Source: Planktothricoides sp. SR001 | GTDB taxonomy: Bacteria > Cyanobacteriota > Cyanobacteriia > Cyanobacteriales > Laspinemataceae | Direction of reading: 5' to 3' | DNA: 34,473 nt | NCBI RefSeq assembly: GCF_001276715.1 | Contig: NZ_LIUQ01000014.1 | Span: 94,227-128,699, forward strand | Shown here: piece after piece, positions 14,669-34,473 of the stretch | Numbering within the stretch: position 1 is the stretch's first letter | Layout of the letters: each line of letters opens with the position of its first letter | Program-made: the position numbers and the translations under genes | The notes under the pieces: generated by a model | What the model was told of the DNA's origin: nothing | Seen by the model: the letters and a program-made list of their open reading frames with translations, nothing else | Database searches by the model: none

Positions 14669-14686
14669 ATAACTATTTCTATTTCT

Positions 14687-17163: not shown

Positions 17164-17178
17164 AAACATCGATTGTAA

Positions 17179-17198
17179 GGGTCAACGGTCGTTGACCC
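17179..17198 (-). terminator. Hairpin after argS
   Basis: GGGTCAACG and CGTTGACCC are perfect 9-base arms with a 2-base loop, 16 bases past the argS stop codon. There is no T-run, so this is a candidate terminator or RNA-stabilising hairpin. Confidence 0.5.
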
Positions 17199-17213
17199 CT
17201 ACCCTGAATAAAA

Positions 17214-18971
17214 CTACATCCGATCTAACACTTCAATTCCCAATAAATTCAAGCCCAATTTCAAAATCCGGGCTGTAAAATCACACAGGAGTAAACGAGA
17301 AGTGTGGAATGGTTCCTCTGCTTGTAAAACCGGACAGCGATCGTAAAATTGATTAAACTTTTGGCTCAATTCAAATAGATATTGACAAAGCCGATTCGGT
17401 AATAACTCCGTTTCTACCGCAGCGATCGCCTCACTCAACAGCAGAATATGTTTTGCCAAAGCGATTTCCGTCTCTTCTTTGAGAATAATTTGCTCACCCA
17501 CCCCCAAATGTCCGAAATCAATATCACCTTTACGGCTAATTCCCTGAACTCGGACATAAGCATAAAGCATATAAGGGGCCGTATTCCCTTGCAAAGCCAG
17601 CATTTTATCGTAACTAAAAATATAGCTACTGGTGCGATTTTGGCTCAAGTCAGCATATTTCACCGCACTCAAACCCACCACTTGCGCCACACGGTCGATA
17701 AATTCTGGAGTTTCTGACCGTCCTTCTACTTGAAGTCGGGTTTCCAAATCAGCCTTAGCGCGGGCGATCGCCTCATCCAACAAATCCCGTAACCGCACAG
17801 TTTCCCCAGCGCGGGTTTTCAACTTCTTGCCATCTTCCCCTTGCACCAAACCAAAGGGAACATGAACCACTTGTACATCATCGGGAATCCAACCAGCACG
17901 AGTTGCCACCTGGAACACCTGGGCAAAATGGGTAGACTGACCTAGATCCGTCACATAAATAATCCGTTTTGCCCCATCTTCCTTAATCCGATAGCGCAAA
18001 GCTGCCAAATCCGTAGTCGCGTAATTATAGCCACCATTAGACTTTTGCACGATCAACGGCTGAGGGTTTCCTTCTTTATTCATAAACCCTTCTAAAAACA
18101 CACATTGGGCGCCTTGGTCTTCTTGCAATAATCCCAAGTTATCCAAATCTGCCACCACTGCGGGCAAAAAAGGATTATAAAAAGACTCGCCCCGTTCCGT
18201 CACCTTAATATCCAACAAATCATAAATCACCTGAAACTCGCGACGAGATTGATCGCACAATAATTTCCAAGCTTGGATTGTCTCTGGATCTCCAGCTTGC
18301 AGTTGCACCACCGCTTGCCGGGAAATCTCGCAAAACGCCTCATCTTCATCAAACCGTTGTTTGGCTTTTTTGTAGAAAGCCACCAAATCGCCAATATCCA
18401 AAGCATCCGCTTTCGTCAAAGCTTCGGGATAAGCTTCGCGCAAATAGGTAATCAGCATCCCGAATTGGGTGCCCCAGTCACCGACATGGTTGAGTCGGAT
18501 AACTTCGTGTCCCCGGAATTCCAAAATTCGGGCAATACAATCGCCGATAATGGTCGATCGCAGATGTCCCACGTGCATTTCTTTAGCAATATTGGGGCTG
18601 GAAAAATCCACCACAATTTTCTGGGGATTTTCTACCCGGTCTACCCCCAGTCGGGCAAAACCCACAATCGAACTGAGTTGGGCTTCCAGATAACTGGGTT
18701 TAATCATCAAATTAATAAAGCCGGGACCCGCTATTTCTGGGGTTTGGCAAATATCGCTCACATTTAAATGATCCACAATTTTCTGAGCAATATCGCGGGG
18801 CTTTTGCTTTAACGGTTTCGCCAAAGACATAGCCACATTTGACTGGTAATCCCCAAACTTGGGATTACTCGCAGGAACTAACAGGGGGTCAGTTGCCGCT
18901 AATTCTTGCCCAAAAGCAGCGACTAAAGCCTGTAAAAATCGTTCTTTGAGGAGGATAATTGGAGTTTTCAT
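17214..18971 (-). CDS. argS: Arginyl-tRNA synthetase
   Basis: This is the class I enzyme that charges tRNA-Arg. The frame is open from 19016, but the ATG at 18971 gives [20 protein letters not shown], the N-terminus expected for ArgRS, and 585 residues, the usual length. The 15 extra upstream codons (with a P-P-P-K-K stretch) look untranslated. The Add-1 domain comes first, followed by the HIGH signature as HVGHLRS at residues 133-139. The KMSKS loop is replaced by GKKLKTRAG, a common variant in ArgRS. The C-terminal DALR anticodon-binding domain ends [13 protein letters not shown]. The gene is intact. Confidence 0.96.
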
Positions 18972-19016
18972 AATTTTTTTTGGGGGGGGGAAAACAATCG
19001 TCCATTGAATACACAT

Positions 19017-19483
19017 TCTCGTATGTAGTGGGCCAATCCCCCTTCTTTAAGTTTATCAATTGACTCGTCTATTATTCTATGATTCAGGCAAATGATTCAG
19101 GCAAACCAGATAAACAGGACTGATCCACACGACCCTAGAAACCGAGTTTCTCACCTTGATTTTCTGCGAGGGACTTTTTTTCCTGAAAGAAACCCGGTTT
19201 CCGAGCACCCAGCCGATCGCCCGTTTTTGCCAATATGCAACCAATACAACAGATACAGGATGACTGGCTAAATTATCTACCGTTTTGGTGGAGATTTCCA
19301 CTAAGTATAATTACTCACTTCCTAATTGAGATGCACCCCTCGGCGGGCTTTGGTGGTAGAGATTAATCGCGATCGTTTCGTTTTTTTATGATGATACTCT
19401 ATTTTGGGAATTTGATAGTATTATCGAGATGTTTATTAAATTCAACTGATGAAACTTCTGTAAAACCAAAAGGAGATGAAAAT
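19017..19483. other. Non-coding region between argS and the amidase gene
   Basis: This 467-base gap contains the AAACCGGGTTT-type repeat pair at 19137-19203 and a short word, TCTATTATTCTATGAT, that recurs near 32878. There is no supported gene. It must contain the argS promoter (minus) and that of the amidase (plus). Confidence 0.5.
19137..19203. repeat. AAACCGGGTTT-type inverted repeat pair
   Basis: AGAAACCGAGTTTCT (19137-19151) and AGAAACCCGGTTTCC (19188-19202) form a palindrome pair upstream of argS. The family is dispersed through the window's intergenic regions. Confidence 0.6.
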
Positions 19484-20617
19484 ATGTGTACGCGAATACT
19501 ATGGACAGGAAAGGATAAGAGTGGCAAATTTCACTCAATCTGCGGTCGTAATATGGACTGGGGTATTGATATGGGAGAAAAGCTATGGGTCTTTCCGGCT
19601 GGACTAAAGCGAAAAAGTGATGTCAAGGGCAAACCTGTAGAGTGGGTGTCAAAATATGGCAGCATTGCTACTATTGTTTACGATCAGGCCACCAGTGACG
19701 GAATGAATGAAAAGGGACTAGGAGTTCATGCTAATTGGCTTGCTAAAAGTTTTTATGGGGAGCGGGATGAAAGCAAACCAGGGCTTGATTGTAATCGCGC
19801 CCTGCAATATTTCCTCGATAACTTTGCCACCGTTAAGGAAGTTGTTGAATACTTCAAGAATAATCAAGATATGCAGTTGGTTGAAACCAAGATCACAAAA
19901 GGGAAGTTTGAAGTTCCAATCGAATGCCATTTAGCGATCGAAGATGCTCAGGGTGAGTCGCTCATTGTCGAGTATCTTAATAAAAACGACGACGATGATA
20001 CTAAACCTCGTGTTCTGGAAGTAAAAATCTACTACAGTGGCGATCTTCCTGAATTATACCTTAAATACTGCAATAACCTTGACATTCCTTCTGAAAAAAA
20101 AGAGGAGTATAAAGCAAATTATTTGAAGGCGTACAACGTCCTGACTAATAATCCTACCTTCAAAAAACAGCTTGAAAATCTCAAAAATTATAAATATTTT
20201 ATTTCTGATGATCATCTAAACTTGCCTGGTGATACTGATGCATCTTCCCGTTTTGTTCGTGGTGCCTATTATTTAATAAATCTCCCTGAGCCAACAAACC
20301 AACGGGAAGCGATCGCTCAGGTTTTAAGTGTTATGCGTTCTACCGCACAACCGTTCCGAAAACCAAAACCAGACTCTAATGCCCTTTATGCCTCATCAAC
20401 CCGGTGGCGTACAGTGGCAGCTTGCACAGAAAAACTGTATATGTACGAATCATCCGTTAATCCAACCCTGATCTGGCTTGATGCTAACAAGTTAGACTTC
20501 AAAGAAGGCAGTGGGGTCCGTGTCTTCGATCTGACCAAGCATGAAACAGTGATCGGTGAAGTATCCGAGAAATTGACACCTGCCGAGGATCTGTTTGGCA
20601 AGAACTTATCCGAGTAA
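19484..20617 (+). CDS. Linear amide C-N hydrolase (choloylglycine hydrolase family)
   Basis: This is an N-terminal nucleophile hydrolase related to bile-salt hydrolase and penicillin V acylase. ATG 19484 follows AGGAG at 19471-19475 and gives MCTRILW, so Cys2 becomes the N-terminal nucleophile after Met removal. The open frame from 19388 has no such feature. Arg22 and Asp25 in CGRNMDWG match the Arg/Asp pair of the family, and STRWRTVAAC near the C-terminus carries a candidate Arg. Length is 377 residues, within the family range. No signal peptide is visible if the start is right. Substrates may be acylated amines or peptides. It lies 526 bases before the NRPS in the same direction, so it may act on that product, but this is only inference. 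Confidence 0.88.
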   Translation: MCTRILWTGKDKSGKFHSICGRNMDWGIDMGEKLWVFPAGLKRKSDVKGKPVEWVSKYGSIATIVYDQATSDGMNEKGLGVHANWLAKSFYGERDESKPGLDCNRALQYFLDNFATVKEVVEYFKNNQDMQLVETKITKGKFEVPIECHLAIEDAQGESLIVEYLNKNDDDDTKPRVLEVKIYYSGDLPELYLKYCNNLDIPSEKKEEYKANYLKAYNVLTNNPTFKKQLENLKNYKYFISDDHLNLPGDTDASSRFVRGAYYLINLPEPTNQREAIAQVLSVMRSTAQPFRKPKPDSNALYASSTRWRTVAACTEKLYMYESSVNPTLIWLDANKLDFKEGSGVRVFDLTKHETVIGEVSEKLTPAEDLFGKNLSE

Positions 20618-20644
20618 TGGGAAGTTGAGTCAAGTGCGACCTTC

Positions 20645-20710
20645 AGAAACCGGGTTTCTTAATACTATCTTTGTCACCCAAGCTTCATGGTGATAGAAAC
20701 CCGGTTTCTT
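20645..20710. repeat. AAACCGGGTTT inverted repeat pair
   Basis: AGAAACCGGGTTTCTT (20645-20660) and AGAAACCCGGTTTCTT (20695-20710) each resemble the same near-palindrome, so the two can pair. It probably ends the amidase transcript. Confidence 0.65.
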
Positions 20711-20824
20711 GGGTTGCTCAAGACCTAGTGATTGTAGGGGCGGTGCCCCCGTGCCCGCCCTGACGCTTTGATTCTCAAGACGGCTAAAGGGTTGCAACCC
20801 TTATCCAGTATATATCCAGTATAT

Positions 20825-20894
20825 TAGACATCTCCAATAATTGCCCGTCACAAAGCCAGATCAAGGCTTTATATCTAATTTTTGGAGATGTCTA
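20825..20894. mobile_element. Possible 70-bp MITE-like element with 18-bp inverted ends
   Basis: TAGACATCTCCAATAATT (20825-20842) and the complement of 20877-20894 differ at one of 18 positions. Both ends begin with TA, as expected for Tc1/IS630-type insertion. Inside is a second hairpin, AAAGCC-N7-GGCTTT. It has no room for a transposase. It may be a non-autonomous element or a structured leader of the NRPS gene. Confidence 0.45.
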
Positions 20895-21143
20895 TTGTCT
20901 AGCTCAACGAGTCTCCACTTAACCATAACTTTATATTTCTTATTATGTTGTTGACTTTTCCTTCTTGACAGATGGGGATAATTGTCATTATATTATTTTG
21001 GAGATACCTAAAGCCGAGACTCAGAGCAAAAGCATATTTTTTTGGATGAGTTCTTAACAAGAATTGATTTTTTCTTGTTTCGCCCGCCAGAGGTGATGAA
21101 AACAACAAAAGTAGATAAAATTACTGATCTAATATTATAAATT

Positions 21144-24100
21144 ATGGAAACGCAACTAAATTATTGGCAGCAGCAATTACAAGATGCTCCCGAATTATTA
21201 CAATTGCCCACAGATAGAACTCGCCCCAGCATACAAACTTATACGGGTAAAATACAAAGATTTACCTTGAATCAGGAATTAACCCAGAAATTACAAAAAC
21301 TCTCAAGTGAGTCTGGAACTACTTTATTTATAACCCTATTGGCTGGCTTCGCTACTTTACTATACCGTTACAGTGGGCAGTCAGATATTTTAATAGGTTC
21401 ACCAGTAGTAAATCGTCATCATCAAGAACTAGACTTATTTATTAATACATTAGTTTTCCGAAGTAATTTTTCCGACAATCCTAGTTTTTTAAGCTTACTC
21501 CATCAGGTCAAACAAACCACAACAAAAGCTGATGAAAATCAAGATATACCCTGGGAAAAGGTAGTAGAAGCATTACAACCTCAAATATCTTTAAGTCATT
21601 CACCTATTTTCCAGGTGATGTTTACCTTAGAGAGTCAATTGGGGCATGAATTAGAATCAACCCTAAAAAATTGGAGAGAATTAAATCAAAACAACATAAC
21701 TGCTAAATTTGATTTAACAGTTTCAATGACGGAAACACTTGAAATTTTAGAAGCGGAATGGGAATATAACAGAGAATTATGGGATGACTCAACGATTGAG
21801 CGGATGGCTGGTCATTTTGAGAACTTGTTATCAGCCATTGTTGCTGACCCTCATCAGACGGTAAATGAATTACCCTTATTGAGCGAAACCGAACGCGATC
21901 GATTATTAGTAGAGTGGAATAATACCGAAACAGAATATCCCCAGGATAAATCTATTCATCAATTATTTGAAGAACAGGTACAACTTACACCCAATGCCAT
22001 AGCTGTAATATTTGCACAACAAAAATTAACCTATTCTGAATTAAATCAAAAAGCTAATCAAGTAGCACACTATTTACAAAGTTTGGGAGTAAAACCTGAC
22101 GCACTGGTAGGGATTTGTGTAGAACGCTCCCTAGAGATGATAATTGGACTGTTAGGGATATTAAAAGCCGGTGGATCTTATGTGCCCCTTGACCCAAATT
22201 ATCCAGCCGAAAGGTTGAGTTATATGCTGACGAATTCAAAAGTTGATGTGTTATTAACTCAACAGGATTTATTATCATTTTTACCTTCATCTACTGCCAA
22301 TCTAGTTTGTTTGGATAGAGATTGGCAAGAGATTAAAAAATATAGTCAGTCCAATCCTGAGACGGGAGTAGGTTCAGAGAATTTAGCTTATGTAATTTAT
22401 ACTTCAGGTTCTACTGGACAGCCTAAAGGAGTGTCCATGAACCATCGTCCGCTTGTCAATCTTATACTTTGGCAAGTAAAACAATCATCTGCTAAATCTG
22501 GCACAAAAACAGGGCAATTTACACCAATAAGCTTTGATGTGTCTTTTCAAGAAATCTTTGCTACTTTGTGTTCAGGGGGAATATTAGTTTTAATCAGAGA
22601 AGAAATACGCAGAGATGGAACAGCATTATTAAAAATGCTCACAGAAGAAGCTATTGAAAGACTATTTCTGCCTTTTGTTGCGCTAGAACAGTTAGATCAG
22701 AGTGCGACAAATACTCAATTTCTCCCTCAAAATCTTCAGGAATTAATTACGGCTGGAGAACAATTAAAAATTACTCCGACACTAATAGAATTTTTCAATA
22801 AACTTCCTAATTGTCAACTAAAAAATCAATACGGGCCAACAGAAAGTCATGTCGTGACAGTATTTACTTTAAAAGGTTCTCCCGATATTTGGCCATCACT
22901 TCCACCCATAGGAAAACCAATAGCCAACGCTAAAATATACATCTTAGACAAACAATTTCAACCAGTACCCATAGGAGTATCCGGTGAACTTTACATCGGA
23001 GGAGATGCACTAGCTAGAGGTTATCTTAATCGCCCAGAATTAACCAGTGAAAGATTTATTTCTAATCCTTTTGGTGAGGGTCGCCTTTATAAAACAGGAG
23101 ATTTAGCCCGCTATTTACCAGATGGTAATATAGAATATTTAGGACGGATAGATAATCAAGTCAAAATTAGAGGTTTCCGCATTGAACTAGGGGAAATAGA
23201 AGCAGTTATTAACAACCATCCTCAAGTTCAACAAGCTGTAGTTATAGCTAGAGAAGATATTCCCGGAAACAAACGTTTAGTCACTTATGTAGTTCCCAAA
23301 TCAAATCATAGTTTGGCCTCAGATCAAGAACTCGATGCTACACAAGTTGCACAATGGCAACAAATTTGGAATACAAACTACAGCCAAACCGCATCCGACT
23401 TTGATCCGACTTTTAATACTATAGGTTGGCGAGATAGTTATACAGGTCAAGCTATTCCTAAACAAGAAATGCGTCAATGGTTAGATGCTACAGTAGAACG
23501 TATTCTTACCTGGAAACCCGACCGAGTTTTGGAAATTGGTTGCGGAACGGGAATGCTTTTGTTTCAAATTGCTCCAAAATGTTCTTATTATCTGGGGACT
23601 GATTTTTCTTCCCAGGTTTTGTCTTATTTAGAAGAACAATTAGCAAATTTAGACGGAAATTGGTCACAAGTTTCTCTTTCCCAGAGAACAGCAGATAATT
23701 TTGAGGGTATTGAACCTGCTTCATTTGATACTGTAATTATCAATTCCGTAATCGAGTTATTTCCTAGCATTAATTACTTAAGTGATGTTTTAAAAAAAGC
23801 GATCCAGGCGGTGAAAAAAGAGGGGATTATTTTTATAGGAGATATCCGTAATTTCTCTTTAATAGAAGCTTTCTATGCTAAACTTGAATTAGATAAAGCT
23901 TCAGATTTGCTATCAACAAAAGAGTTACAGCACTACATTTTTGATGGCATGGGTAAGGAGGATCAATTATTGCTAGATCCTGATTTTTTCATAGCACTAA
24001 AGCAACATTTTTCTTCCATCAGTCATGTGCAAATTCAACTCAAGCGCGATCGATATCATAATGAAATATCTAAATTCCGCTATGATGTTATTCTTCATAT

Positions 24101-27100
24101 AGAAAAACAGGTTTCTCCCACAGCAGAATTTCAGTGGTTAGACTGGCAAAAAAATGACCTAACTGTGTCAGCAGTCCGTGATTTAATTAAAGAAACAAAA
24201 CCAGAAATTTTAGGCATAAAGAATATACCTAACCCTCGTTTGAGTCAAGAAATCAAGCTTTTAGATTTATTGCATAATCCAACAGAAGTAACTACAGTCG
24301 GTGAATTACGAGAAGCGTTACAGTGGTTTGAAAATGATGGGATAGAACCCGATGATTGGTGGGATTTAGGCGCAGAGTTAGCGCAGAATGTTTATATTAA
24401 TTGGTCTGAGGTTAAGGGCTACTATGATGTGGTTTTTCAAACAGGGGGAAAACTTTTCGACCATGACCGAGAAAATGTTGAGATCAAACCTTGGAACAGT
24501 TATGGTAATAATCCTCTGCAAAGCAAAATAGTAAGTAATTTAGAACAAAAATTGCGGACTGATTTGAAAAAAAGTCTCCCTGACTATATGATGCCCACAG
24601 CTTTTGTTATCCTCGATCAAATGCCACTAACACCAAGTGGTAAAGTCGATCGTCGTGGGCTAAAAGCTCCTGAAAAGTGCCGCCCTGAATTGTCAACAGT
24701 TCTGGTTATTCCCCGCACAGATAACGAAAAACTGATTGCTAATATTTGGCAGGAATTATTACAGATAGATTTAGTAGGAATACATGACAATTTCTTTGAG
24801 TTAGGTGGCCATTCTTTAGTAGCAACTCAATTAATATCCAGACTCAGAGAAACTTTTGAAGTAGAAATACCCCTCAGAGTCATCTTTGAATCGCCAACAA
24901 TAGCAGAATTAGATCAGGCATTAAGCCAATTACTGCTCCTCAAAAAAGGATTGAATATTCCCCCTCTAAAACCTGTTACAAAAGATTTAGAGCAAATCCC
25001 CCTATCTTTTCAACAAGAAAGACTGTGGTTTCTCGATCAATTAGAAGGAGCAAATGCTACTTATAATATACCAGTAGCCATCTCGTTAACGGGTAATTTG
25101 AAAATTCATTTACTTGAAAAAGCCCTTTCTGAAATAGTACAAAGACATGAGGTACTAAGAACTAGCTTCCCCACAGTTGACGGCACACCAAGACAGATAA
25201 TCGATCCAGAAGCTACCCTAAATATTAAGGTGACAGACTTACAGCATCTTGAAGAAACAGAACGCCAAACTGTATTAAAACAAGAACTACAACAAGAAGC
25301 AAATATTCCGTTTAATTTAGAACAAGCACCCTTAATCAGATGTAGTTTATGGCAGTTATCTCAAACTGAATATGTGTTACTAATAACAATGCACCATATT
25401 GTGTCAGATGGCTGGTCATTAGGAATATTGAATCAAGAAATTTCAACTCTATATAAAGCTTTTCTAGCAGGGAAGTCATCACCTTTAGAAAAATTACCCG
25501 TGAACTATGCAGATTTTTCTGTTTGGGAAAAACAATGGTTAAAGGGAGAAATATTAGAAACTCAACTCAATTACTGGAGACAACAATTACAAAATGCTCC
25601 AGAATTATTACAATTACCTACAGATCGCCCTAGACCAAATATACAGACTCACAAAGGGAAAAGCCAAAGATTTCTCTTAAACACAGAGTTAACCAAGAAA
25701 ATCCAGAATCTAGCCAATGAGTCTGGAAAAACTTTATTTATGACTTTGTGGGCAGCTTTTGCCACATTACTATATCGTTATAGCGGACAATCAGATATTT
25801 TAATCGGGTCATCAATAGCTAATCGTAACCGCAGTGAAATCGAGTCATTGATAGGTTTTTTTCTTAATACTTTGGTTTTAAGAAGTAATTTTGAGGATAA
25901 TCCTAGTTTCTTAGAATTACTCAACCAAGTTAAAGAAACTACACTTAAAGCTTATGAACATCAAGATGTACTCCTTGAACAAGTATTACCATCCCAAAGG
26001 TCTTTAAGTTATGCTTATTTATTCCAAGTAATGTTTATTCTCCAACCTCCAGTAGTAGAATTAGAACTACCAGGAATAACTTGTCATCAGTTATATCAAG
26101 AAAGCAAAATTGCGAAGTTTGATTTAACAGTCTCAATGACGGAAACATTTCAAGGCTTAGAAGGAGAATGGGAATACAATACAGATTTATGGGATGACTC
26201 AACTATTAAGCGGATGGCTAGTCATTTTGAAAACTTATTATCAGCGATTGTTACTCATCCTTATAAGACTGTTAATGAGTTACAATTATTGAATGAAACA
26301 GAACGCGATCAATTATTAGTAGAGTGGAATCATACTCAGACCGAATATCCCCAGGATAAATGTATTCATCAATTATTTGAAGAGCAGGTAAAACTCACAC
26401 CCAATGCCATAGCGGTAGTTTTTGAAGAACAAAAATTAACCTATTTTGAGTTAAATCAAAAAGCCAATCAAGTAGCACGTCATCTCCAAAGCTTAGGAGT
26501 AAAAGCTGAATCCTTAGTAGGGATTTGTGTAGAACGTTCTTTAGAGATGGTAATTGGAGTGTTAGGGACATTAAAAGCGGGTGGTGCTTATGTTCCCCTA
26601 GACCCAAATTATCCAGCCGAAAGATTGAGTTATATGTTGACTAATTCAAAAGTTGATGTGTTATTGACTCAAAAACATTTCTTGTCATATTTCGCGTCAA
26701 ATACTACACAGATAGTTTGTTTGGATAGAGATTGGACAACAATTGAACAATACAGCACAGAAAACTTATCTGCTGAAGTAGGGTCAAAAAATTTGGCTTA
26801 TGTCATTTATACTTCAGGTTCTACTGGTCAACCGAAAGGAGTTTTAATTGAACATCAAGCTTTGGTAAATTTCAATCAAGTAGCTTGTCAATATTATCAA
26901 CTAAGCGATCGGGATCGAGTCCTACAATTTGCTTCAATTAGTTTTGATGCAGCCGCAGAGGAAATTTATCCTAGCTTGACATCAGGAGCAACTTTAGTAT
27001 TGCGAACTGAGGAGATGATTCAATCATCCGCAACCTTTCTGCAACTGTGTAATCACTGGCAAATCACCGTCTTAGACTTACCCACTGCTTACTGGTCTCA

Positions 27101-28916
27101 GTTAATAGCTGACATAAAATTAGACAATTTAAAACTCCCTACCTCTTTACGATTAGTTATTATTGGAGGAGAGGAGGTTAAGCTTAGTCAAGTGGAACTC
27201 TGGCTTAGTCAAAAACATCATTCGGTTTTAATCAATACTTACGGACCGACAGAAGCCACTGTAGATGCAACATTATATTCTATTCCCACAGAACTCAAAA
27301 GCCTGAAGACAATTCCCATAGGTCGTCCTTTAGCCAACACTCAAATTTATATCCTAGACCAACATCTGCAACCAGTGCCAATAGGAGTTACGGGAGAATT
27401 ATATATTGGTGGAGATAGACTAGCCAGAGGTTATCTGAATCGACCAGAATTAACTCAAGAGAAATTTATTCTTAATCCCTTTGGCGAAGGTCGTCTTTAT
27501 AAAACAGGTGATTTAGTTTGTTATCTCCCTGATGGCAATATTGAATACATTGGTCGCATCGATAATCAAGTCAAAATAAGAGGCTTCCGCATTGAGTTAG
27601 GAGAAATAGAAGCTGTTCTCAACACCCATCCTCAAATCCAACAAACTGTAGTTATAGCGAGGGAAGACATACCTGGAAACAAACGTCTAGTAGCCTATAT
27701 TGTGACTGAGGATGAATTATTAAATACTCATCAACTACGAGAATATCTCAAACAGAAGTTACCAGAATATATGCTACCTTCTGCTTTTATGTTATTAAAA
27801 AATCTCCCCTTAACACCCAATGGCAAAATAGACCGTAAAGCTTTACCGGCTCCTGATTTAGACTTAAGCACGGGCGGACAGTTAATTCTTCCGCGAGATA
27901 CTATAGAACTGAAATTAGCACAAATCTGGTCTGATTTGCTCGGCATCAATCCTATAGGAGTAACAAACAACTTCTTTGAATTAGGCGGTCATTCTCTTTT
28001 GGCTGTCAGTCTCATGGCTCAAATTCAAAAACAATTCCACAAAAAGTTATCTCTAGCAACGCTTTTCCAAAATTCAACCATTGAACAAATAGCCCATCTT
28101 CTGCGTTTAGAAACAGATTCTTTAGATTGGGCTGTCTTAGTTCCCATCAAATCTAAGGGTAATAAACCTCCGCTATTTTGTATTCATCCATCAGGAGGAA
28201 ATGTTCTCTGTTATCAAGATTTAGCCTATCAATTGGATTTAGCTCAACCAGTCTATGGATTACAATCCTTTGGTCTAAATCCTGAAAACCAACCTCATAG
28301 CAGCATTGAACATATGGCTAGTCATTATATCCAAGCAATCCAAACTGTTCAAGCTCATGGTCCTTACTTTCTGATGGGTTGGTCTTTAGGGGGTATAGTT
28401 GCTTTTGAAATGGCACAGCAACTTTCTCGCCAAGGAGAACAAATTGCTTTCTTAGCTTCAATAGATGCTAACCCTCTTTTCACCACATCTGAATTAGAAA
28501 ATAATGATGCTGTTGTGATGGTGTGGATGCTTGGAGAAGCTCTTGAACCTTGTTTGGAGGAAATAAAACAACTAGAACCACAGGAACAATTAATCTATGT
28601 GTTAGAACAAGCTAAACAAAAAAATCTGGTGTCAGAAGACGTTGATTTAACTCAAATTCAACATTTATTGGAGATTAACAAATTGAACATTCAATCTCTA
28701 GGAAAGTATCAACCTCAATCTTATTCAGGCTCGATGATTGTCATACAAGCTAGTGAAACTGAGACTGACCTGGCCTCAGTCTGGAATGATTTTGTAGAAA
28801 AAGTAGATGCTTATATGATTCCGGGTAATCATTACAATCTGGTCAGAAATCCACAAGTTCAGATATTAGCTCAAATCATCCAAAAATATCTTGATCAAGA
28901 TTGTCGGTTAGGTTGA
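21144..28916 (+). CDS. Two-module NRPS: (half C)-A-NMT-PCP-C-A-PCP-TE
   Basis: This is a 2590-residue non-ribosomal peptide synthetase. Residues 1-255 are only the second half of a condensation domain, without the HHxxxDG lobe. A1 spans about 270-730, with TSGSTGQPKG at 420. An N-methyltransferase is inserted in A1 (LEIGCGTG near 796), A10 is TPSGKVDRRG near 1160, and PCP1 has Ser1224 in LGGHSL. C2 is complete (HHIVSDG, 1417-1423). A2 has TSGSTGQPKG at 1890, and PCP2 has Ser2284. The TE has Ser2414 in GWSLGG, Asp2441 and His2563. By alignment with GrsA as I recall it, A1 lining residues are D-V-Q-F-I-A-Q-V-V and A2 D-A-E-D-I-G-T-V-D. A2 acidic residues suggest a basic amino acid. The product is likely a short, partly N-methylated peptide. 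ATG 21144 lacks a clear ribosome binding site. Confidence 0.92.
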   Translation: METQLNYWQQQLQDAPELLQLPTDRTRPSIQTYTGKIQRFTLNQELTQKLQKLSSESGTTLFITLLAGFATLLYRYSGQSDILIGSPVVNRHHQELDLFINTLVFRSNFSDNPSFLSLLHQVKQTTTKADENQDIPWEKVVEALQPQISLSHSPIFQVMFTLESQLGHELESTLKNWRELNQNNITAKFDLTVSMTETLEILEAEWEYNRELWDDSTIERMAGHFENLLSAIVADPHQTVNELPLLSETERDRLLVEWNNTETEYPQDKSIHQLFEEQVQLTPNAIAVIFAQQKLTYSELNQKANQVAHYLQSLGVKPDALVGICVERSLEMIIGLLGILKAGGSYVPLDPNYPAERLSYMLTNSKVDVLLTQQDLLSFLPSSTANLVCLDRDWQEIKKYSQSNPETGVGSENLAYVIYTSGSTGQPKGVSMNHRPLVNLILWQVKQSSAKSGTKTGQFTPISFDVSFQEIFATLCSGGILVLIREEIRRDGTALLKMLTEEAIERLFLPFVALEQLDQSATNTQFLPQNLQELITAGEQLKITPTLIEFFNKLPNCQLKNQYGPTESHVVTVFTLKGSPDIWPSLPPIGKPIANAKIYILDKQFQPVPIGVSGELYIGGDALARGYLNRPELTSERFISNPFGEGRLYKTGDLARYLPDGNIEYLGRIDNQVKIRGFRIELGEIEAVINNHPQVQQAVVIAREDIPGNKRLVTYVVPKSNHSLASDQELDATQVAQWQQIWNTNYSQTASDFDPTFNTIGWRDSYTGQAIPKQEMRQWLDATVERILTWKPDRVLEIGCGTGMLLFQIAPKCSYYLGTDFSSQVLSYLEEQLANLDGNWSQVSLSQRTADNFEGIEPASFDTVIINSVIELFPSINYLSDVLKKAIQAVKKEGIIFIGDIRNFSLIEAFYAKLELDKASDLLSTKELQHYIFDGMGKEDQLLLDPDFFIALKQHFSSISHVQIQLKRDRYHNEISKFRYDVILHIEKQVSPTAEFQWLDWQKNDLTVSAVRDLIKETKPEILGIKNIPNPRLSQEIKLLDLLHNPTEVTTVGELREALQWFENDGIEPDDWWDLGAELAQNVYINWSEVKGYYDVVFQTGGKLFDHDRENVEIKPWNSYGNNPLQSKIVSNLEQKLRTDLKKSLPDYMMPTAFVILDQMPLTPSGKVDRRGLKAPEKCRPELSTVLVIPRTDNEKLIANIWQELLQIDLVGIHDNFFELGGHSLVATQLISRLRETFEVEIPLRVIFESPTIAELDQALSQLLLLKKGLNIPPLKPVTKDLEQIPLSFQQERLWFLDQLEGANATYNIPVAISLTGNLKIHLLEKALSEIVQRHEVLRTSFPTVDGTPRQIIDPEATLNIKVTDLQHLEETERQTVLKQELQQEANIPFNLEQAPLIRCSLWQLSQTEYVLLITMHHIVSDGWSLGILNQEISTLYKAFLAGKSSPLEKLPVNYADFSVWEKQWLKGEILETQLNYWRQQLQNAPELLQLPTDRPRPNIQTHKGKSQRFLLNTELTKKIQNLANESGKTLFMTLWAAFATLLYRYSGQSDILIGSSIANRNRSEIESLIGFFLNTLVLRSNFEDNPSFLELLNQVKETTLKAYEHQDVLLEQVLPSQRSLSYAYLFQVMFILQPPVVELELPGITCHQLYQESKIAKFDLTVSMTETFQGLEGEWEYNTDLWDDSTIKRMASHFENLLSAIVTHPYKTVNELQLLNETERDQLLVEWNHTQTEYPQDKCIHQLFEEQVKLTPNAIAVVFEEQKLTYFELNQKANQVARHLQSLGVKAESLVGICVERSLEMVIGVLGTLKAGGAYVPLDPNYPAERLSYMLTNSKVDVLLTQKHFLSYFASNTTQIVCLDRDWTTIEQYSTENLSAEVGSKNLAYVIYTSGSTGQPKGVLIEHQALVNFNQVACQYYQLSDRDRVLQFASISFDAAAEEIYPSLTSGATLVLRTEEMIQSSATFLQLCNHWQITVLDLPTAYWSQLIADIKLDNLKLPTSLRLVIIGGEEVKLSQVELWLSQKHHSVLINTYGPTEATVDATLYSIPTELKSLKTIPIGRPLANTQIYILDQHLQPVPIGVTGELYIGGDRLARGYLNRPELTQEKFILNPFGEGRLYKTGDLVCYLPDGNIEYIGRIDNQVKIRGFRIELGEIEAVLNTHPQIQQTVVIAREDIPGNKRLVAYIVTEDELLNTHQLREYLKQKLPEYMLPSAFMLLKNLPLTPNGKIDRKALPAPDLDLSTGGQLILPRDTIELKLAQIWSDLLGINPIGVTNNFFELGGHSLLAVSLMAQIQKQFHKKLSLATLFQNSTIEQIAHLLRLETDSLDWAVLVPIKSKGNKPPLFCIHPSGGNVLCYQDLAYQLDLAQPVYGLQSFGLNPENQPHSSIEHMASHYIQAIQTVQAHGPYFLMGWSLGGIVAFEMAQQLSRQGEQIAFLASIDANPLFTTSELENNDAVVMVWMLGEALEPCLEEIKQLEPQEQLIYVLEQAKQKNLVSEDVDLTQIQHLLEINKLNIQSLGKYQPQSYSGSMIVIQASETETDLASVWNDFVEKVDAYMIPGNHYNLVRNPQVQILAQIIQKYLDQDCRLG

Positions 28917-29015
28917 GGAACAAAACCCCACCCTATCAAGGATTTGGTTGGGGTTCTCAGTCGCTCAATTCAACCTACGTTTTAAAATATGTTTATTTTG
29001 TAGGAGAGTTAGCCC

Positions 29016-29336
29016 ATGAAAAGTTGGATTTATTTATCCATTGCCATTTTATTTGAATTAGCAGGAACAACCTGTACGAAGTTGTCTAATGGATTTACTA
29101 ACTTAAGTTATTCTGTTTTAATGCTAATATGTTACGGCTGTAGTATATCTTTATTGACAATAGCTGTTAAAGGAATTAATCTAAATATTGCTTATGCGGT
29201 GTGGTCAGGATTGGGAACAGCTTTAATTGCGATCATAGGAGTTGTTTTTTTTAAAGAAAGTTTAAATCCTTCAAAAATAGTTTTCATTCTTTGGATTATT
29301 TTAGGGGTTGTCGGCTTGAATTTAACATCTAAATAA
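29016..29336 (+). CDS. Small multidrug resistance (SMR) family transporter, subunit 1
   Basis: This is a four-helix inner-membrane proton-coupled exporter of the EmrE/Qac type, 106 residues. Glu14 (SIAILFELAGTTCTK) is the essential proton/substrate site, and the third and fourth segments carry NLNIAYAVWSGLGTAL and WIILGVVGLNL. The start is preceded by AGGAG. It follows the NRPS by 99 bases in the same direction, so it likely exports the product or protects the host. A second SMR gene (30098-30411) lies in opposite direction and shares the KGINLNIAYA core. The two look like partners of a heterodimeric pump such as EbrAB. Confidence 0.93.
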   Translation: MKSWIYLSIAILFELAGTTCTKLSNGFTNLSYSVLMLICYGCSISLLTIAVKGINLNIAYAVWSGLGTALIAIIGVVFFKESLNPSKIVFILWIILGVVGLNLTSK

Positions 29337-29341
29337 AATTT

Positions 29342-29367
29342 ATCTTAATTTTAAATTAAGATTTTTA
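29342..29367 (+). terminator. Intrinsic terminator after SMR subunit 1
   Basis: ATCTTAATT (29342-29350) and AATTAAGAT (29354-29362) form a 9-base hairpin with a 3-base loop, directly followed by TTTTT. It is AT-rich, so possibly weak. It would end the NRPS-SMR transcript before the GNAT gene. Confidence 0.6.
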
Positions 29368-29434
29368 ATCCGATAAATACCATTTAATTTGGTATTGTAA
29401 AAATTAAATTCATAAAACTTAGGAGAAAATAATT

Positions 29435-30079
29435 ATGTTAGAAAAAGATGGAATCGTTTATGAAATTCTGCAAAGTCAGGATTTGTCCAGTGCAATTGAA
29501 TGTGTAGCTACTGTTTTTCCTGGCAGTGAGCCACTTACACAGTGTTTAGGCATAACCAAAGAATACTATTATCCCGTAGCCGAAATTGTTTGTCAGAAAG
29601 CTGTAGAAGATGGGTTATCTCATATCGCGAAGGATGCAAAAACTGGTGAATTGGTCGGATTTATAATTTCCGAAGATATGTATATAGAAAATAATTTTTA
29701 TAAAGAAAAGTATAAAAAATTTGACAAATTTCTCCCAATCATTTCTCTGGTAGAGTTACTACAAAAAGAATATTTAGCAGAGAAAAATATCAAAAAAGGA
29801 GAATTATTTTACGAGTCTATGATAGGAGTATATCCTCAATATCAGAATCGCAACATAGCTAGATATTTATATGCTGAAAATATCGAGTATGCTAAAACTC
29901 AAAAATTTTCCAGAATAATTACTGAACCAAGTGGAATTGTTACACAAAGATATTGTTCGAGATTCGGATTTAAGGAAATTTTGTCAATTAATTATCAAGA
30001 TTATGAATATGAAGGAGTGAAAGTATTTGCTAACATCAATCGTCACAAAAAATGCGTGCTAATGGAGAAATTACTCTAG
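29435..30079 (+). CDS. GNAT-family N-acetyltransferase
   Basis: This 214-residue cytoplasmic protein has the GNAT fold. The central strand is FYESMIGVYPQYQNRNIARY with the acetyl-CoA loop Q/N-x-x-N-I-A, followed by IITEPSGIVTQRYCSRFGFK, the usual last helix-strand. The start has AGGAG upstream. It presumably acylates an amine, either the NRPS product, a building block, or the toxic product for self-protection. It sits right after SMR subunit 1, separated by a terminator-like hairpin. Members of this type occur as tailoring or resistance enzymes; the substrate is not deducible. Confidence 0.82.
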   Translation: MLEKDGIVYEILQSQDLSSAIECVATVFPGSEPLTQCLGITKEYYYPVAEIVCQKAVEDGLSHIAKDAKTGELVGFIISEDMYIENNFYKEKYKKFDKFLPIISLVELLQKEYLAEKNIKKGELFYESMIGVYPQYQNRNIARYLYAENIEYAKTQKFSRIITEPSGIVTQRYCSRFGFKEILSINYQDYEYEGVKVFANINRHKKCVLMEKLL

Positions 30080-30097
30080 CCTGACACAACGAGATTC

Positions 30098-30411
30098 TTA
30101 AGATAGCAAATTTACCCCCACGACTCCTAGAATAATCAAAATAATTGAAACAATTTGTAGAGGGTTTAAAGTTTCTTTAAAAAAAATAACCCCTACTATT
30201 GCATCGCGGTTCCCAATCCTGACCAGATTGCATAAGCAATATTTAGATTAATTCCTTTAAGGGCTTTGGTCAACATAGTGATGCTACAAATGTAGCAGAT
30301 CACCACTAAGGCAGAAGGAATTAATTGAGTAAATCCCTGGGAAAACTTCATACAAGTTGTTCCTATGGATTCTAATAAAATAGCAATGAATAAATCAAGC
30401 CAACTTGTCAT
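30098..30411 (-). pseudogene. SMR family transporter, subunit 2, one-base deletion
   Basis: From ATG 30411 the frame reads MTSWLDLFIAILLESIGTTC (Glu14 kept) to AYAIWSGLGTA, then runs into two stops after M-Q. Restoring one base near 30203 gives IAIVGVIFFKETLNPLQIV and a normal end (LGVVGVNLLS) at 30098-30100, for a total of about 104 residues. So a 1-base deletion has removed helix 4. It is the last gene of the minus-strand unit, 22 bases behind the PLP decarboxylase. If real, the heterodimeric pump has lost one subunit. Confidence 0.85.
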
Positions 30412-30433
30412 AATCTAACTCTTTCTACAATCA

Positions 30434-31750
30434 TTAATGGACTGGTTTTATAGGTTGAATTAGTTCCAAACGAGAAGGTAGATATTCTCTTCTCTCTATA
30501 TCACTCAAATCTTCAGCCGCACGAATTAATTCTACATCTCCTCTTTCTGTAATCAACACAATATTAGGACGATATTCGATAAACTGAAACCAAAAACTAT
30601 TATTATAGGCACCAATATTAGAGATGACCAAGCGATCGCCTCGTGATAAAGGTGGTAAGCTAATCGCTTCAGCTATCACATCTATATTAGTACAAAGAGG
30701 CCCATAAAGTTGAGAATTTTCACACTGACCAGGAATAGCCTGTGCTAGGGCAATATTAAAGTCAAACCAAAGACCAAGAAATAGTAAGTTAATCCCAGCA
30801 TCGATAACATAACCAGGATTTCCATCAGGTAAGCGTTTTGTCCCACAAACGGTAGTAATTAAAGTTCCTGCTTCATCTACCAGCAATCGTCCTGATTCAA
30901 TAATTAATTTAGGTCTATGGTTGGGTCTAAGACTTTTCAAGAGAGCATTACAGATGGTCTCCGCATAGTCATCAATCGAAGGAACCCTTCCCTCGTTTGA
31001 ATGAATTGCACCCTTAGACACATGATAAATTTCCTTGATTTTATTGTTGGATGCAAATCCACCCCCAATATCTATATACTCCATCTGCCAACCAAAATGA
31101 TCTTCTATCTCATAGCCAAATTTGACCATTTTTTCTACTTGTTGATCATAGGCTTCTTTATTGGTTATGAAAGTACCAATATGGCTATGTAATCCATTTA
31201 GACGTAACCTATTACTCTTAGCTATATGTTGTACGGCTTCCATCGCTTCACCAGATTCTAGGTTAAAACCAAATCTTGACCAACAAGGTTCAATACCTGT
31301 ATCTAAGTTAATACGAATACCAACAGTCAGGGTTTTGTCTAAGATTGAGGCAATTTTTTCTAAATCTTGAATTTCCTCGAAGTGGTCAATATTAACTGTT
31401 CCCTCATCTTTAATTGCCTCTAATAAAGTATCATAAGGCTTATGGGGACCGTTTAAGATGATGTCTTCACCAGGAATACCTAAATTCTTAGCTTTCTCAT
31501 ATTCCATTTTAGAAACCAATTCCGCGATCGCGCCTTCTTGATGGAAAATAGCACAAATTGCTTTTAAATAATTCGTTTTGTAAGACCAACCAAAAGTTAC
31601 CTTTGGATAACGAGTAGTAAAAGCATTTTTGAAACTACGAAACTGCTTTCTTAATGTTGCTTCTGAGTAAACAAATAAAGGAGAACCAAATTTTGTGACT
31701 AAATCTTCAACATTAACTCCAGCTATTTTTGTTTTAATTGTATAATCCAT
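30434..31750 (-). CDS. Fold-III PLP decarboxylase (LysA/Orn-DC-like)
   Basis: This 438-residue enzyme belongs to the alanine-racemase-fold decarboxylases of diaminopimelate, lysine, ornithine or arginine. Lys58 in GWSYKTNY is the PLP Schiff-base lysine. HSHIGT (188-193), DIGGGF (227-232), ESGR (285-288) and GPLCTNID (350-357; Cys353 and Asp357) follow in order. The Cys motif differs from C-E-S-G-D of DAP decarboxylase, so the substrate may be a related amino acid or a carrier-bound one. It is co-directional with the SET gene upstream and the broken SMR gene 22 bases downstream. A role in making an amine unit for the neighbouring NRPS is inference. Confidence 0.9.
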   Translation of the reverse strand: MDYTIKTKIAGVNVEDLVTKFGSPLFVYSEATLRKQFRSFKNAFTTRYPKVTFGWSYKTNYLKAICAIFHQEGAIAELVSKMEYEKAKNLGIPGEDIILNGPHKPYDTLLEAIKDEGTVNIDHFEEIQDLEKIASILDKTLTVGIRINLDTGIEPCWSRFGFNLESGEAMEAVQHIAKSNRLRLNGLHSHIGTFITNKEAYDQQVEKMVKFGYEIEDHFGWQMEYIDIGGGFASNNKIKEIYHVSKGAIHSNEGRVPSIDDYAETICNALLKSLRPNHRPKLIIESGRLLVDEAGTLITTVCGTKRLPDGNPGYVIDAGINLLFLGLWFDFNIALAQAIPGQCENSQLYGPLCTNIDVIAEAISLPPLSRGDRLVISNIGAYNNSFWFQFIEYRPNIVLITERGDVELIRAAEDLSDIERREYLPSRLELIQPIKPVH

Positions 31751-31800
31751 AGTTCAAACCTGTTTAGTTAACACTTTTTATATCTGGGAGAGATTGCCAT

Positions 31801-31838
31801 AAAAAAGGGGGACTTCGAGCAAATTTCTGCTTACCCCT
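31801..31838 (-). terminator. Probable terminator after the SET gene
   Basis: On the minus strand a GGGG...CCCCC hairpin containing an inner AGCA...TGCT stem is followed by six T (31806-31801). It lies between the SET gene and the decarboxylase, so these two may be only partly co-transcribed. Confidence 0.5.
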
Positions 31839-31849
31839 CTTTAGGATGG

Positions 31850-32536
31850 CTAGGTATTATCGGAGTTCACTGAACCTTTTTTATAATAGATATTAATGCT
31901 AGAATCTATCGTTTCTATTCCAGCAGCAACAGCTATTACCTTATCTTTGTACTTGTCATTAATCAGATGTTTTAAAGGTTGTTCAACTTGATTAAAATAA
32001 GACATTGCTTCAGCAGCTTTTTTGTCCCATTCTGAATACAAGTTTAAGGGATCATCTGGTAGGATAGTATGACGAACTCCTGCTTCTTCATCGTTTCGTA
32101 GACATTCAAAAGGTTCATCTAAATTTAAAGTTCCATAATCAATTGTTATTTCTTCTCCGGGATAAATATCTCTGACTGCTATTTCAAAATCATAAGCAGT
32201 AGTAATACAGTTGGGATTAGAATTATGATTAAGAAAACGCCCTAGATCCCAAACAAATGCGAACTCACCACTTCTATAGCGATAACAGTATTTAAGAAGT
32301 TCTTTTTTCCTGACTTCATCAAGATTATGTACAAAAGATTCATCTAGTCTTTGCGTCAGGTCATCTAAAATCCAAACTATAGTTCCTTTTGGAATCAATT
32401 TAGTGGCTATTACCCCATAACCAATAACGTCGTTAATCTTGGTCATTTGGGTGTCAGGATGTATCATATAGTATTTCTCAGGTAGATTAGTTATGTTGAA
32501 TTGCTTTAGTGGTAAAGCTTTTAGCTTCAAAAACAT
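31850..32536 (-). CDS. SET-domain protein (putative lysine methyltransferase)
   Basis: This 228-residue cytoplasmic protein has the SET signature: IGYGVIATKLIPKGTIVWI near residue 38, GRFLNHNSNPNC at 99-110 and GEEITIDYGTLN at 127-138, the last two forming the SAM-binding knot. The post-SET part (to 228) lacks Cys-rich zinc sites, as usual for bacterial SET proteins. SET enzymes methylate lysine side chains in proteins, which is unusual in a peptide gene cluster. It may modify a carrier, a partner enzyme, or a free amino acid. It is the first gene of the minus-strand unit. Assignment to the family is firm; role is not. Confidence 0.9.
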   Translation of the reverse strand: MFLKLKALPLKQFNITNLPEKYYMIHPDTQMTKINDVIGYGVIATKLIPKGTIVWILDDLTQRLDESFVHNLDEVRKKELLKYCYRYRSGEFAFVWDLGRFLNHNSNPNCITTAYDFEIAVRDIYPGEEITIDYGTLNLDEPFECLRNDEEAGVRHTILPDDPLNLYSEWDKKAAEAMSYFNQVEQPLKHLINDKYKDKVIAVAAGIETIDSSINIYYKKGSVNSDNT

Positions 32537-32946
32537 ACCTCATGTCACTAATAACCGCGATAACAGGTCTTCAAAAAAAACAACATAACTGATTATAATA
32601 ACTGTTTATTAGATAAATTTCCAGGGCAAACCCATGAAAATTTCGGAAGCCATAGGCATTAAGACTTTGAGAAAAAGCTCAGTAAAAATACTTAGCATCG
32701 AACGCCTTGCTGGGAAAGGGATTTAGTTTTTTTATGCGTTTGCCTTGCGTTGGTTGCTTCAAGGGAGCCAAAAAGGAGCGCGATTGGAATGCGCCGATGC
32801 TGCGCGATCGCGTTATGGTTGTCTCGCCTCATGGTTGTCTGACTCATAATCACTTCCGAACCTTACCAACTAAGTTATCTATTATTCTATGATCCAATCT
32901 GGTAGATGCCTCGGATATTACTCATAAAATCCCCGAACCCAAGTTT
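32537..32946. other. Non-coding region before the FAD oxidoreductase
   Basis: This 410-base stretch separates the SET gene from the next gene. The only open frame (32707-32892) has unlikely composition and no ribosome binding site. I see a GGTTGTCTC/GGTTGTCTG tandem word near 32817 and TCTATTATTCTATGAT near 32878, which also occurs near 19069. It should contain divergent promoters. Confidence 0.5.
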
Positions 32947-33003
32947 ATGAGTCAATGCCGATCGCTTCGCAATTCTGATTATATGCAGTCAACAAAACAG
33001 CCA

Positions 33004-34272
33004 ATGACTCAAAACCTGGTTTTCATCGGTGGAGGACATAGCCATGCGATCGCCCTGAGAATGTGGGGCATGAACCCATTACCCGGAGTTCGCATCACCT
33101 TAATCAGCGATGTTACCCATACCCCATATTCGGGAATGCTTCCGGGTTATATTGCTGGTTTCTACGATTATGACCAAAGCCATATTGATTTAAGACCTTT
33201 AGCCCACTTTGCCGGAGCCCAATTTTATCGCGAACGCGCCGTGGGTTTAGACTTAGCCAACAACCGCGTAATTTGTGCCCACCGTCCCCCAGTTGCCTTC
33301 GATATTTTATCCATTGACATTGGCAGCACCCCGGCAACCCTCTCCGTACCTGGCGCCGCAGACTATGCCATTCCTGCCAAACCCGTCCCAAACTTATTGC
33401 ACCATTGGCATCAACTAATTGAAGAATTGCAAGGAGGGTCAACCACAGCTACAGAAAAGCCCCTACAGATAGGCATTGTTGGCGGGGGCGCCGGAGGTGT
33501 GGAATTAGCCTTATCCATGTCTGCTCGTTTAAATCAAATTCTCGGTTCCCAAAATCGCCCAAATTCCCCAAATTGCCCAAATCGCCCAAATTGTTCAAAT
33601 CTTCAGATTCATCTCTTCCAACGTAGCCCCGAAATCCTCCCCACTCATAGCACTTATGTGCGAAATAATTTGCAAAAAATTCTCACTCAGCGCGGGATTA
33701 ACTTACATTTAAGTGAGTCAGTCATCCGAATAGAATCTCGCACCCCCGCCCCTCCGCTCCTCTGCTCCTCTGCTCCCCTGCCCCCGATGGCAGCCCACGC
33801 AAAAGAACCCGTCACCGTCTATTGTGAATCTGGGTTAACCATAGAGTGCGATCGCCTCTTTTGGGTCACACAAGCCTCGGCCCCGGATTGGTTAAAAGAA
33901 TCTGGTTTAAGTACCGATGCTGCTGGCTTCATTAAAGTGAGTGATACCTTACAATCAATTTCTCACTCTCACATATTTGCCACTGGGGACATTGCCACCA
34001 TGATTAATCATCCCCGTCCCAAAGCGGGAGTCTTTGCGGTCCGTCAGGGTAAACCTTTAGCTGAAAATTTGCGGCGCATTCTACAAGGTCAACCCCTCAA
34101 ACCATTTAAACCTCAGAAAAATTTTCTCACTTTAATTGGTACAGGAGAAGGAAGCGCGATCGCTTCTCGTGGGGCTTTTGGTCTTGGGCCTTCTCCGCTC
34201 TTATGGCGTTGGAAAGATAGGATCGATCGCGAATTTATGGAAAAATTCCGCAATTTTCCGCATCAAAAATAG
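33004..34272 (+). CDS. FAD-dependent pyridine nucleotide-disulfide oxidoreductase (SelD N-half-like)
   Basis: This flavoprotein of about 422 residues has NLVFIGGGHSHAIAL at the start, IGIVGGGAGGVELALSMSAR for the second nucleotide site, and ATGDIATM near the end. The first Met in frame is 32947, but Met20 (33004) gives the normal family N-terminus. It resembles the N-terminal half of cyanobacterial selenide, water dikinase fusions, and type II NADH dehydrogenases. The frame stops at WRWKDRIDREFMEKF plus a few residues, the place where, as I recall, the SelD half would begin. Two repetitive inserts (PNR/PNS/PNC and a Pro/Leu/Ser stretch) interrupt the chain. The role could be a quinone or selenium-related redox step. 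Confidence 0.8.
   Translation: MTQNLVFIGGGHSHAIALRMWGMNPLPGVRITLISDVTHTPYSGMLPGYIAGFYDYDQSHIDLRPLAHFAGAQFYRERAVGLDLANNRVICAHRPPVAFDILSIDIGSTPATLSVPGAADYAIPAKPVPNLLHHWHQLIEELQGGSTTATEKPLQIGIVGGGAGGVELALSMSARLNQILGSQNRPNSPNCPNRPNCSNLQIHLFQRSPEILPTHSTYVRNNLQKILTQRGINLHLSESVIRIESRTPAPPLLCSSAPLPPMAAHAKEPVTVYCESGLTIECDRLFWVTQASAPDWLKESGLSTDAAGFIKVSDTLQSISHSHIFATGDIATMINHPRPKAGVFAVRQGKPLAENLRRILQGQPLKPFKPQKNFLTLIGTGEGSAIASRGAFGLGPSPLLWRWKDRIDREFMEKFRNFPHQK
33552..33596 (+). repeat. Five tandem 9-bp units in the oxidoreductase gene
   Basis: AAATCGCCC, AAATTCCCC, AAATTGCCC, AAATCGCCC and AAATTGTTC run in tandem and encode a P-N-x repeat. They resemble the short tandem repeats common in cyanobacteria. 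A second C/T-rich repeat of 8-base words lies at about 33748-33785 in the same gene. Confidence 0.85.
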
Positions 34273-34312
34273 CGACAGATAAACTAATTACAATTAACCT
34301 TGGCAATTGGAG

Positions 34313-34402
34313 TAGGGGCGAAGCCTGACGGCAGTAGGGGCGAGAAAGCGAATCGTCCTTACAATAAAGCAATCAATTATCTGCGGTCATGCTTCGCCCT
34401 TA
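34313..34402. repeat. GTAGGGGCG-type repeat at window end
   Basis: Two GTAGGGGCG words (34313 and 34335) and a downstream TGCTTCGCCCTTAC form a partial inverted repeat similar to those at 1056, 6060 and 17087. No gene is seen from 34273 to the end. Confidence 0.55.
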
Positions 34403-34473
34403 CACGGAGTTTATTGGAGATGATTTGGCTGAATGAATTTCAGTTCTATTTTCACCGCTCGTAAAAATCTGGA

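Follow-up and report, generated by a model that had tools for sequence, protein, structure and literature searches.

Does the gene set around a two-module non-ribosomal peptide synthetase (NRPS) in Planktothricoides sp. SR001 serve one pathway, and if so, what does it make? The set lies on contig NZ_LIUQ01000014.1, in a stretch of 34,473 nt (the window) out of a genome of 7.07 Mb (G000); coordinates throughout are window positions, with the strand in brackets or in its own column. An earlier reading of the letters alone, the original prediction, had named an amidase, an NRPS with a methyltransferase (MT) domain, SMR, GNAT and SET proteins and a fold-III decarboxylase, the unit genes standing in two convergent runs. 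Pfam and NCBIfam profiles run on the window proteins agreed with these families, with the two runs and with the coordinates (Table 1). We tentatively propose that the genes from the NRPS to the SET gene form a strain-variable, probably acquired unit for a small N-methylated dipeptide amine.

A strain-variable unit

In a second genome of the same species, a single contig of 7.2 Mb (G410, with its locus L103), window positions 7092-20716 and 32981-34473 were matched at 99.3% identity, and just 84 bp lay between them. The amidase was kept at this locus and the whole segment from the NRPS to the SET gene was missing. Outside the locus, G410 gave no match to the decarboxylase (E 1e-50), the SET protein (1e-10) or the GNAT (1e-3); the NRPS and the SMR protein were not sought there. 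Among the 14 genomes of the window's own family, the decarboxylase was found in one and the SET protein in one, both times the window's own genome. The GC content is 0.360 within the unit and 0.423 in the remaining window. At third codon positions (GC3) the five unit genes have values of 0.23-0.26. The amidase stands at 0.40, and nine other window genes range from 0.26 to 0.51, one host gene among them (8400-9041), at 0.26, being as low as the unit genes. The unit is strain-variable and probably acquired.

These observations also bear on a rival explanation, in which two unrelated passengers share a variable locus, the NRPS run being one and an amine-tailoring and export module (SET, decarboxylase, SMR, GNAT) the other. 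The decarboxylase would then have a host conjugate of some kind as its substrate, and the GNAT and SMR proteins would detoxify amines. The low GC3 common to all five genes argues against independent passengers, as does the G410 locus, which is without all unit genes.

The amidase had been placed in the cluster by the original prediction. It is indeed present upstream, inside the 99.3% identical stretch, and was found in G410 without the unit genes. Its membership is doubtful because it is kept there without the others and has a host-like GC3; it adjoins the unit, probably without being a member. A 16-nt direct repeat brackets amidase and unit together, and may reflect a shared arrival of both with later loss of the unit in G410.

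The genes for arginyl-tRNA synthetase (ArgRS) and a SelD-N-terminal-like protein adjoin in a genome of the same genus (G386) and in one of the same family (G388), and between them no amidase, NRPS or partner genes were found in either. Similarity to G386 is weak from the start of the ArgRS gene to the left repeat copy. Positions 32854-32980 are homologous to G386, yet missing from G410. The G410 junction (L103:13649-13732) carries a 61-bp copy of window positions 33229-33289, an internal part of the neighbouring SelD-N-terminal-like gene; this is a rearrangement scar. These junction marks and the 16-nt repeat are explained no better by gain through a clean insertion in the window's genome than by joint entry of amidase and unit followed by loss of the unit in G410.

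Table 1. Features of the locus (window positions)
Feature	Position	Strand	Basis or remark
Presence/absence unit (NRPS, SMR, GNAT, broken SMR copy, decarboxylase, SET), 12,264 bp	20717-32980		comparison with G410; GC content
NRPS, 2590 aa: half C-A1-MT-PCP-C-A2-PCP-TE	21144-28916	+	domain profiles, motifs, alignments
SMR small multidrug exporter (predicted), 106 aa, EbrB/Qac-like	29016-29336	+	PF00893, 4.7e-28
GNAT protein of 214 aa with the fold of amine N-acyltransferases	29435-30079	+	AlphaFold2, pLDDT 91.0; Foldseek
Second SMR copy, inverted, frame broken by a small deletion	~30095-30422	-	arms 75-78% complementary to first copy
Fold-III decarboxylase (ornithine/diaminopimelate/arginine), dependent on pyridoxal phosphate (PLP), 438 aa, nearest FigC	30434-31750	-	PDB, NCBIfam, alignment
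SET-domain protein, 228 aa, motifs FLNHNSNPNC and EITIDYG	31850-32536	-	PF00856, 7.4e-14
Choloylglycine-hydrolase-family Ntn amidase	19484-20617	+	PF02275, 1.8e-41
16-nt direct repeat, left copy	19068-19083	+	one copy in matching intergenic stretch of G386
16-nt direct repeat, right copy	32878-32893	+	within sequence homologous to G386 (32854-33000, 90%)
Sigma-70-like promoter match, 11/12 positions	20965-20994	+	upstream of NRPS
IsrR antisense RNA, regulator of the iron-stress gene isiA	1955-2132	-	Rfam RF01419, 121 bits

The peptide synthetase

All motifs looked for in the NRPS were present: those of the adenylation (A) domain core and of the MT domain, both serines of the peptidyl carrier proteins (PCP), HHxxxDG of the second condensation domain (C2) and GxSxG of the thioesterase (TE). 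With two A and two PCP domains, one complete C domain and a TE, all with intact motifs, the protein has the make-up of a dipeptide synthetase. The specificity codes, read by motif anchoring, are DVQFIAQVV for A1 and DAEDIGTVD for A2, and comparison with published codes makes the first Pro-like and the second Lys-like. Table 2 of PMC2866473 gives the Pro codes DVQFIAHVXK and DVQYIAHVTK. In PMC3207962, the Lys code of BacB is DAESIGSV, and the Pseudomonas syringae code DGEDHGTV is matched to it; the second predictor of that paper disagreed on DGEDHGTV.

Cyanobacterial homologue searches covered 386 genomes, the window's own included. NRPS modules that bear a methyltransferase are common among them (43 genomes at E <=1e-80). 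The NRPS of G024 (L091) is co-linear with that of the window, C-A-MT-PCP-C-A-PCP-TE, and matches it at 49.7% over 2644 aa. It has a whole first C domain where the window protein has half, and it carries the code DVQFIAQVV in A2, not in A1. Its surroundings, 19.9 kb, hold no match to the SET, GNAT, SMR or decarboxylase proteins, a point in favour of independent passengers.

The half domain points to another rival explanation, a decaying remnant in which the NRPS is truncated and non-functional and the unit is being lost. No remnant of the missing half lies upstream (the first half of C2 as a query gave no match in 20600-21200), whereas in the G024 homologue the domain is complete; one of the two SMR copies is broken; and G410 is without the unit, with the 61-bp copy of a neighbouring gene inside its 84-bp junction. 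Against decay, the frame is open over 2590 codons and the motifs looked for are present. Moreover, an initiation module can do without a condensing C domain, and a complete first C domain is required only where the first residue is N-acylated. On balance, we consider decay unlikely.

A sigma-70-like promoter match lies upstream of the NRPS, but such matches are no more frequent in the region than by chance (48, against 44.4 with an sd of 5.6 in shuffles), and it is therefore weak evidence. At the gathering threshold the only Rfam family in the window was IsrR, far from the unit.

A decarboxylase nearest FigC

The original prediction had called the decarboxylase LysA-like, a label that fails. 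A LysA identity was ruled out, as its 218.8 bits lie under the cut-off of TIGR01048 (297.9), while the genome's own LysA scores 504. The NCBIfam models for lysA (218.8 bits) and FslC (NF041039, 219.3 bits) tie on the window protein, whereas the genome's own LysA separates them at 504 against 91. That LysA has a Glu beside the catalytic Cys and an Arg in the helix region, and the window decarboxylase has neither. In the PDB, the best match was the N-citrylornithine decarboxylase FigC (7kh2; 1.2e-52, 182.5 bits), followed by a diaminopimelate decarboxylase (DAPDC) at 134 bits. The relative at L052 likewise favoured FigC over DAPDC.

Motifs kept in the window protein are the catalytic Lys, HIGT, the glycine loop, ESGR, the catalytic Cys and GAY; their roles are in part those given in PMC7857480. 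That paper groups FigC with SbnH, AcsE, MccE and BtrK as enzymes acting on conjugated substrates, and states that clade members that are neither DAPDC nor D-ornithine decarboxylase likely serve specialised metabolism. FigC, the best-scoring solved structure, shares with the window protein the fold family and the PLP motifs. Beside the catalytic Cys, neither FigC (Met) nor the window decarboxylase (Thr354) has an Asp or Glu. In the specificity helix, L325, W328 and F329 of the window protein stand against T327, T330 and Y331 of FigC, and the window protein adds an Asp at 330. A counterpart of the citrate-ligating synthetase of the FigC/rhizoferrin system was not seen in the window unit.

Matches to the decarboxylase (E <=1e-50) were found in four of the 386 genomes, namely the window's own, G127, G060 and, remotely, G324. 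A broader search, in a collection of 84,980 species where a single-protein query recovers close relatives only, returned three decarboxylase loci, the close L045 and L046 along with L047 at 27% identity; Cyanobacteria bacterium UBA8803 holds a relative of 70% identity. A plasmid search returned 282 records, none with an identity of at least 60%.

The four close relatives, 61-76% identical to the window decarboxylase, share a surrounding of their own. Each is preceded by a PqqD-like gene and an ATP-grasp gene (4/4 for both), in a cassette present in cyanobacteria and a planctomycete (L051:7098-12062, L052:7146-11995, L045:1011-3679, L046:8565-13056). In three of the four cassettes, a gene fusing a urea transporter to an M23 peptidase follows the decarboxylase, and all four enzymes carry a leader-like N-terminal extension of ~25 residues of the type YxKPxI...MNK. 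The cassette looks like a recognition system of the kind found for ribosomally synthesised and post-translationally modified peptides (RiPPs), in which leader and enzyme form one protein; a literature search found no description of it.

The window decarboxylase, by comparison, has no PqqD-like neighbour, no ATP-grasp neighbour and no N-terminal extension. The cassette ATP-grasp as a query gave no match in the window's genome, while the same query found homologues in the compared loci, and no leader remnant was seen upstream of the window gene in three frames (31741-31860). According to the original prediction, SET and decarboxylase genes far from the NRPS in relatives would speak against the cluster. 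This is partly the case, as the decarboxylase relatives sit with PqqD and ATP-grasp genes. In the relatives examined, the unit genes sit apart from each other, which again favours independent passengers.

In the specificity helix, the window protein differs at 4 of the 10 positions that are invariant in the four relatives. Overall the count is 34 of 262, which gives an uncorrected Fisher p of 0.028, or 0.067 with the Cys loop added. The same helix test applied to each relative in turn gave 0 of 10. Asp330 stands where the four cassette relatives have R, K, R and H, and Thr354 replaces the Met beside the catalytic Cys. Judged from the sequence, Asp330 would suit a basic side chain.

GNAT, SMR and SET proteins

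The model of the GNAT was matched best by Foldseek in the PDB to a dopamine acetyltransferase, to the C-terminal condensation domain of Ebony and to a viral polyamine acetyltransferase, and additionally to arylalkylamine, spermine and agmatine acetyltransferases. Among the matches listed, the two best by TM-score were the Ebony domain (6dym, 0.85/0.85) and a spermine acetyltransferase (5yag_B, 0.84/0.85). The protein thus has, in its model, the fold of amine acyltransferases and is predicted to be one. It shares this fold with the Ebony domain and with insect and viral amine N-acetyltransferases, but is a stand-alone bacterial protein whose structural alignment with 6dym shows 18% identity.

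Relatives of the GNAT were found in five of the 386 genomes at E <=1e-8, the window's own included, and none was matched on plasmids. In G030 (L074:7372-10045) one follows, at a short distance, a group II PLP decarboxylase gene, for which diaminobutyrate decarboxylase is the best NCBIfam model at 217 bits, far under the cut-off of 900; the two genes are perhaps an amine-acylation pair. In G199 (L077:7703-10153) another is fused as A-PCP-GNAT, the domain order of insect Ebony, in which an adenylation and a carrier domain precede the amine-condensing GNAT domain. By eye, the other three of the five neighbourhoods (L073-L077) held no evident amine gene.

Such a likeness allows for Ebony-like chemistry, in which the GNAT would condense an NRPS-bound aminoacyl group with the amine that the decarboxylase supplies, acetyl-CoA taking no part. 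Besides the high rank of 6dym and the fusion in G199, this explanation draws on the acyl-CoA-binding motif, which by eye looks degenerate in most of six relatives. Several observations oppose it: the NRPS carries its own TE, stand-alone GNAT homologues exist away from NRPS genes, and dopamine and polyamine acetyltransferases match the model about equally well. We regard Ebony-like chemistry as very improbable.

The original prediction had described the exporter as a pair. We found one intact SMR gene, with 86.6 bits (1.6e-24) to the NCBIfam EbrB model, under its cut-off of 160, and one inverted, frame-broken copy in which 71 aa remain in frame, so that a functional pair was ruled out. EbrAB and MdtIJ are paired SMR exporters. 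They share the SMR family with the window protein, but are tandem pairs, whereas in the window a broken copy stands inverted to an intact one. The two copies bracket the GNAT gene (29005-30422), an arrangement perhaps left behind when the two runs were joined. With the intact copy in the NRPS run and the broken one in the decarboxylase run, the copies tie both runs to each other and count against independent passengers.

The SET protein carries the motifs FLNHNSNPNC and EITIDYG, which we take to be those for binding of S-adenosylmethionine and for catalysis, and matched lysine methyltransferases in the PDB at E 5e-4 and weaker. Its AlphaFold2 model was poor (pLDDT 46.5) and was not used. Relatives were found in 10 of the 386 genomes at E <=0.001, the window's own included, and on 12 plasmid records, the best at 50% in Priestia megaterium. 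On the Priestia megaterium plasmids L097, L098, L099 and L101, the SET gene, ~50% identical, lies near annotated sporulation and spore genes. Neighbourhoods were read by eye in the nine other genomes (Pfam on ten neighbours) and in 5 of the 12 plasmid records, that of a Niallia plasmid being without annotation. Neither a decarboxylase of the window's family nor an NRPS methyltransferase module was seen in the neighbourhoods examined, and in most of them the genes look unrelated. G060 has relatives of both proteins on separate contigs, SET (55%) on contig 10 and decarboxylase (69%) on contig 19. In G245 (L038:1739-9893) a SET gene, 31% identical, ends a same-strand run of genes for an AMP-ligase, a carrier-reductase and three desaturases; in G382 (L041) a weak SET relative lies beside a desaturase.

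We predict that the SET protein came along as a passenger or else methylates lysines of proteins. A bolder idea makes it a tailoring enzyme for the dipeptide, either free or bound to a carrier: methylation of the side-chain amine on the Lys-like residue would yield a decarboxylated N-methyl dipeptide amine with a permanent positive charge, for export by the Qac-type SMR protein. A SET role in small-molecule biosynthesis elsewhere is allowed because the G245 gene follows a biosynthetic run; for the window we give this idea only the slightest weight. If it were true, it would place a SET enzyme in small-molecule biosynthesis, which would be new.

Proposed pathway

We infer the order of the steps, the substrate of each and the connection between the convergent runs as follows. 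Module 1 would initiate with a Pro-like residue, which it would N-methylate, and module 2 would append a Lys-like basic residue. The TE would free the dipeptide acid. Acting on this conjugate, the decarboxylase would strip the Lys-like residue of its carboxylate, leaving a cadaverine-type amide. The GNAT would then acylate the free amine, and the SMR protein would export the cationic product. The N-methylated peptide or amide with a decarboxylation-derived amine, suggested by the original prediction, still offers the best reading, given the Lys-like A2, the decarboxylase nearest FigC and the fold of the GNAT; its tentative standing has been noted above, and independent passengers are nearly as likely.

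A number of points weigh against the dipeptide-amine pathway. The first C domain is a second half only, with the later portion of C2 as its counterpart and without the half with HHxxxDG, and this halving fits decay, as does the broken SMR copy. Neither A-domain code, read at the GrsA positions, matches any of the published codes compared exactly, and N-methylation on a Pro-like residue is unusual. For the decarboxylase, 219.3 bits fall short of the curated FslC cut-off of 500, the helix region was singled out after inspection of the alignment, and the positional equivalence of Asp330 to the substrate-binding Asp of ornithine and arginine decarboxylases is putative. Finally, the combination was seen in one genome, which gives no sign of co-selection of the two convergent runs.

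Co-occurrence of the SET protein, the decarboxylase and the NRPS methyltransferase module was compared across 35 other loci. None matched both the SET protein and the decarboxylase, nor either of them with that module; an NRPS without the module was not tested there. The literature, in open-licence papers only, likewise held no described cluster with these genes. The remark of the original prediction that it knew of no described SET and decarboxylase cluster stands to this extent, apart from its LysA-like label. The parts are of known types and each has precedents, and none of the other genomes searched showed this combination.

In summary, a strain-variable unit of Planktothricoides sp. SR001 brings together a two-module NRPS, a non-LysA decarboxylase nearest FigC and a GNAT with an amine-acyltransferase fold. 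If the proposed pathway is true, NRPS tailoring would have recruited a decarboxylase of the FigC kind from a PqqD/ATP-grasp cassette, and its fold would have been reused on peptide conjugates. The unit-free strain of the same species is a ready comparison for finding the product.

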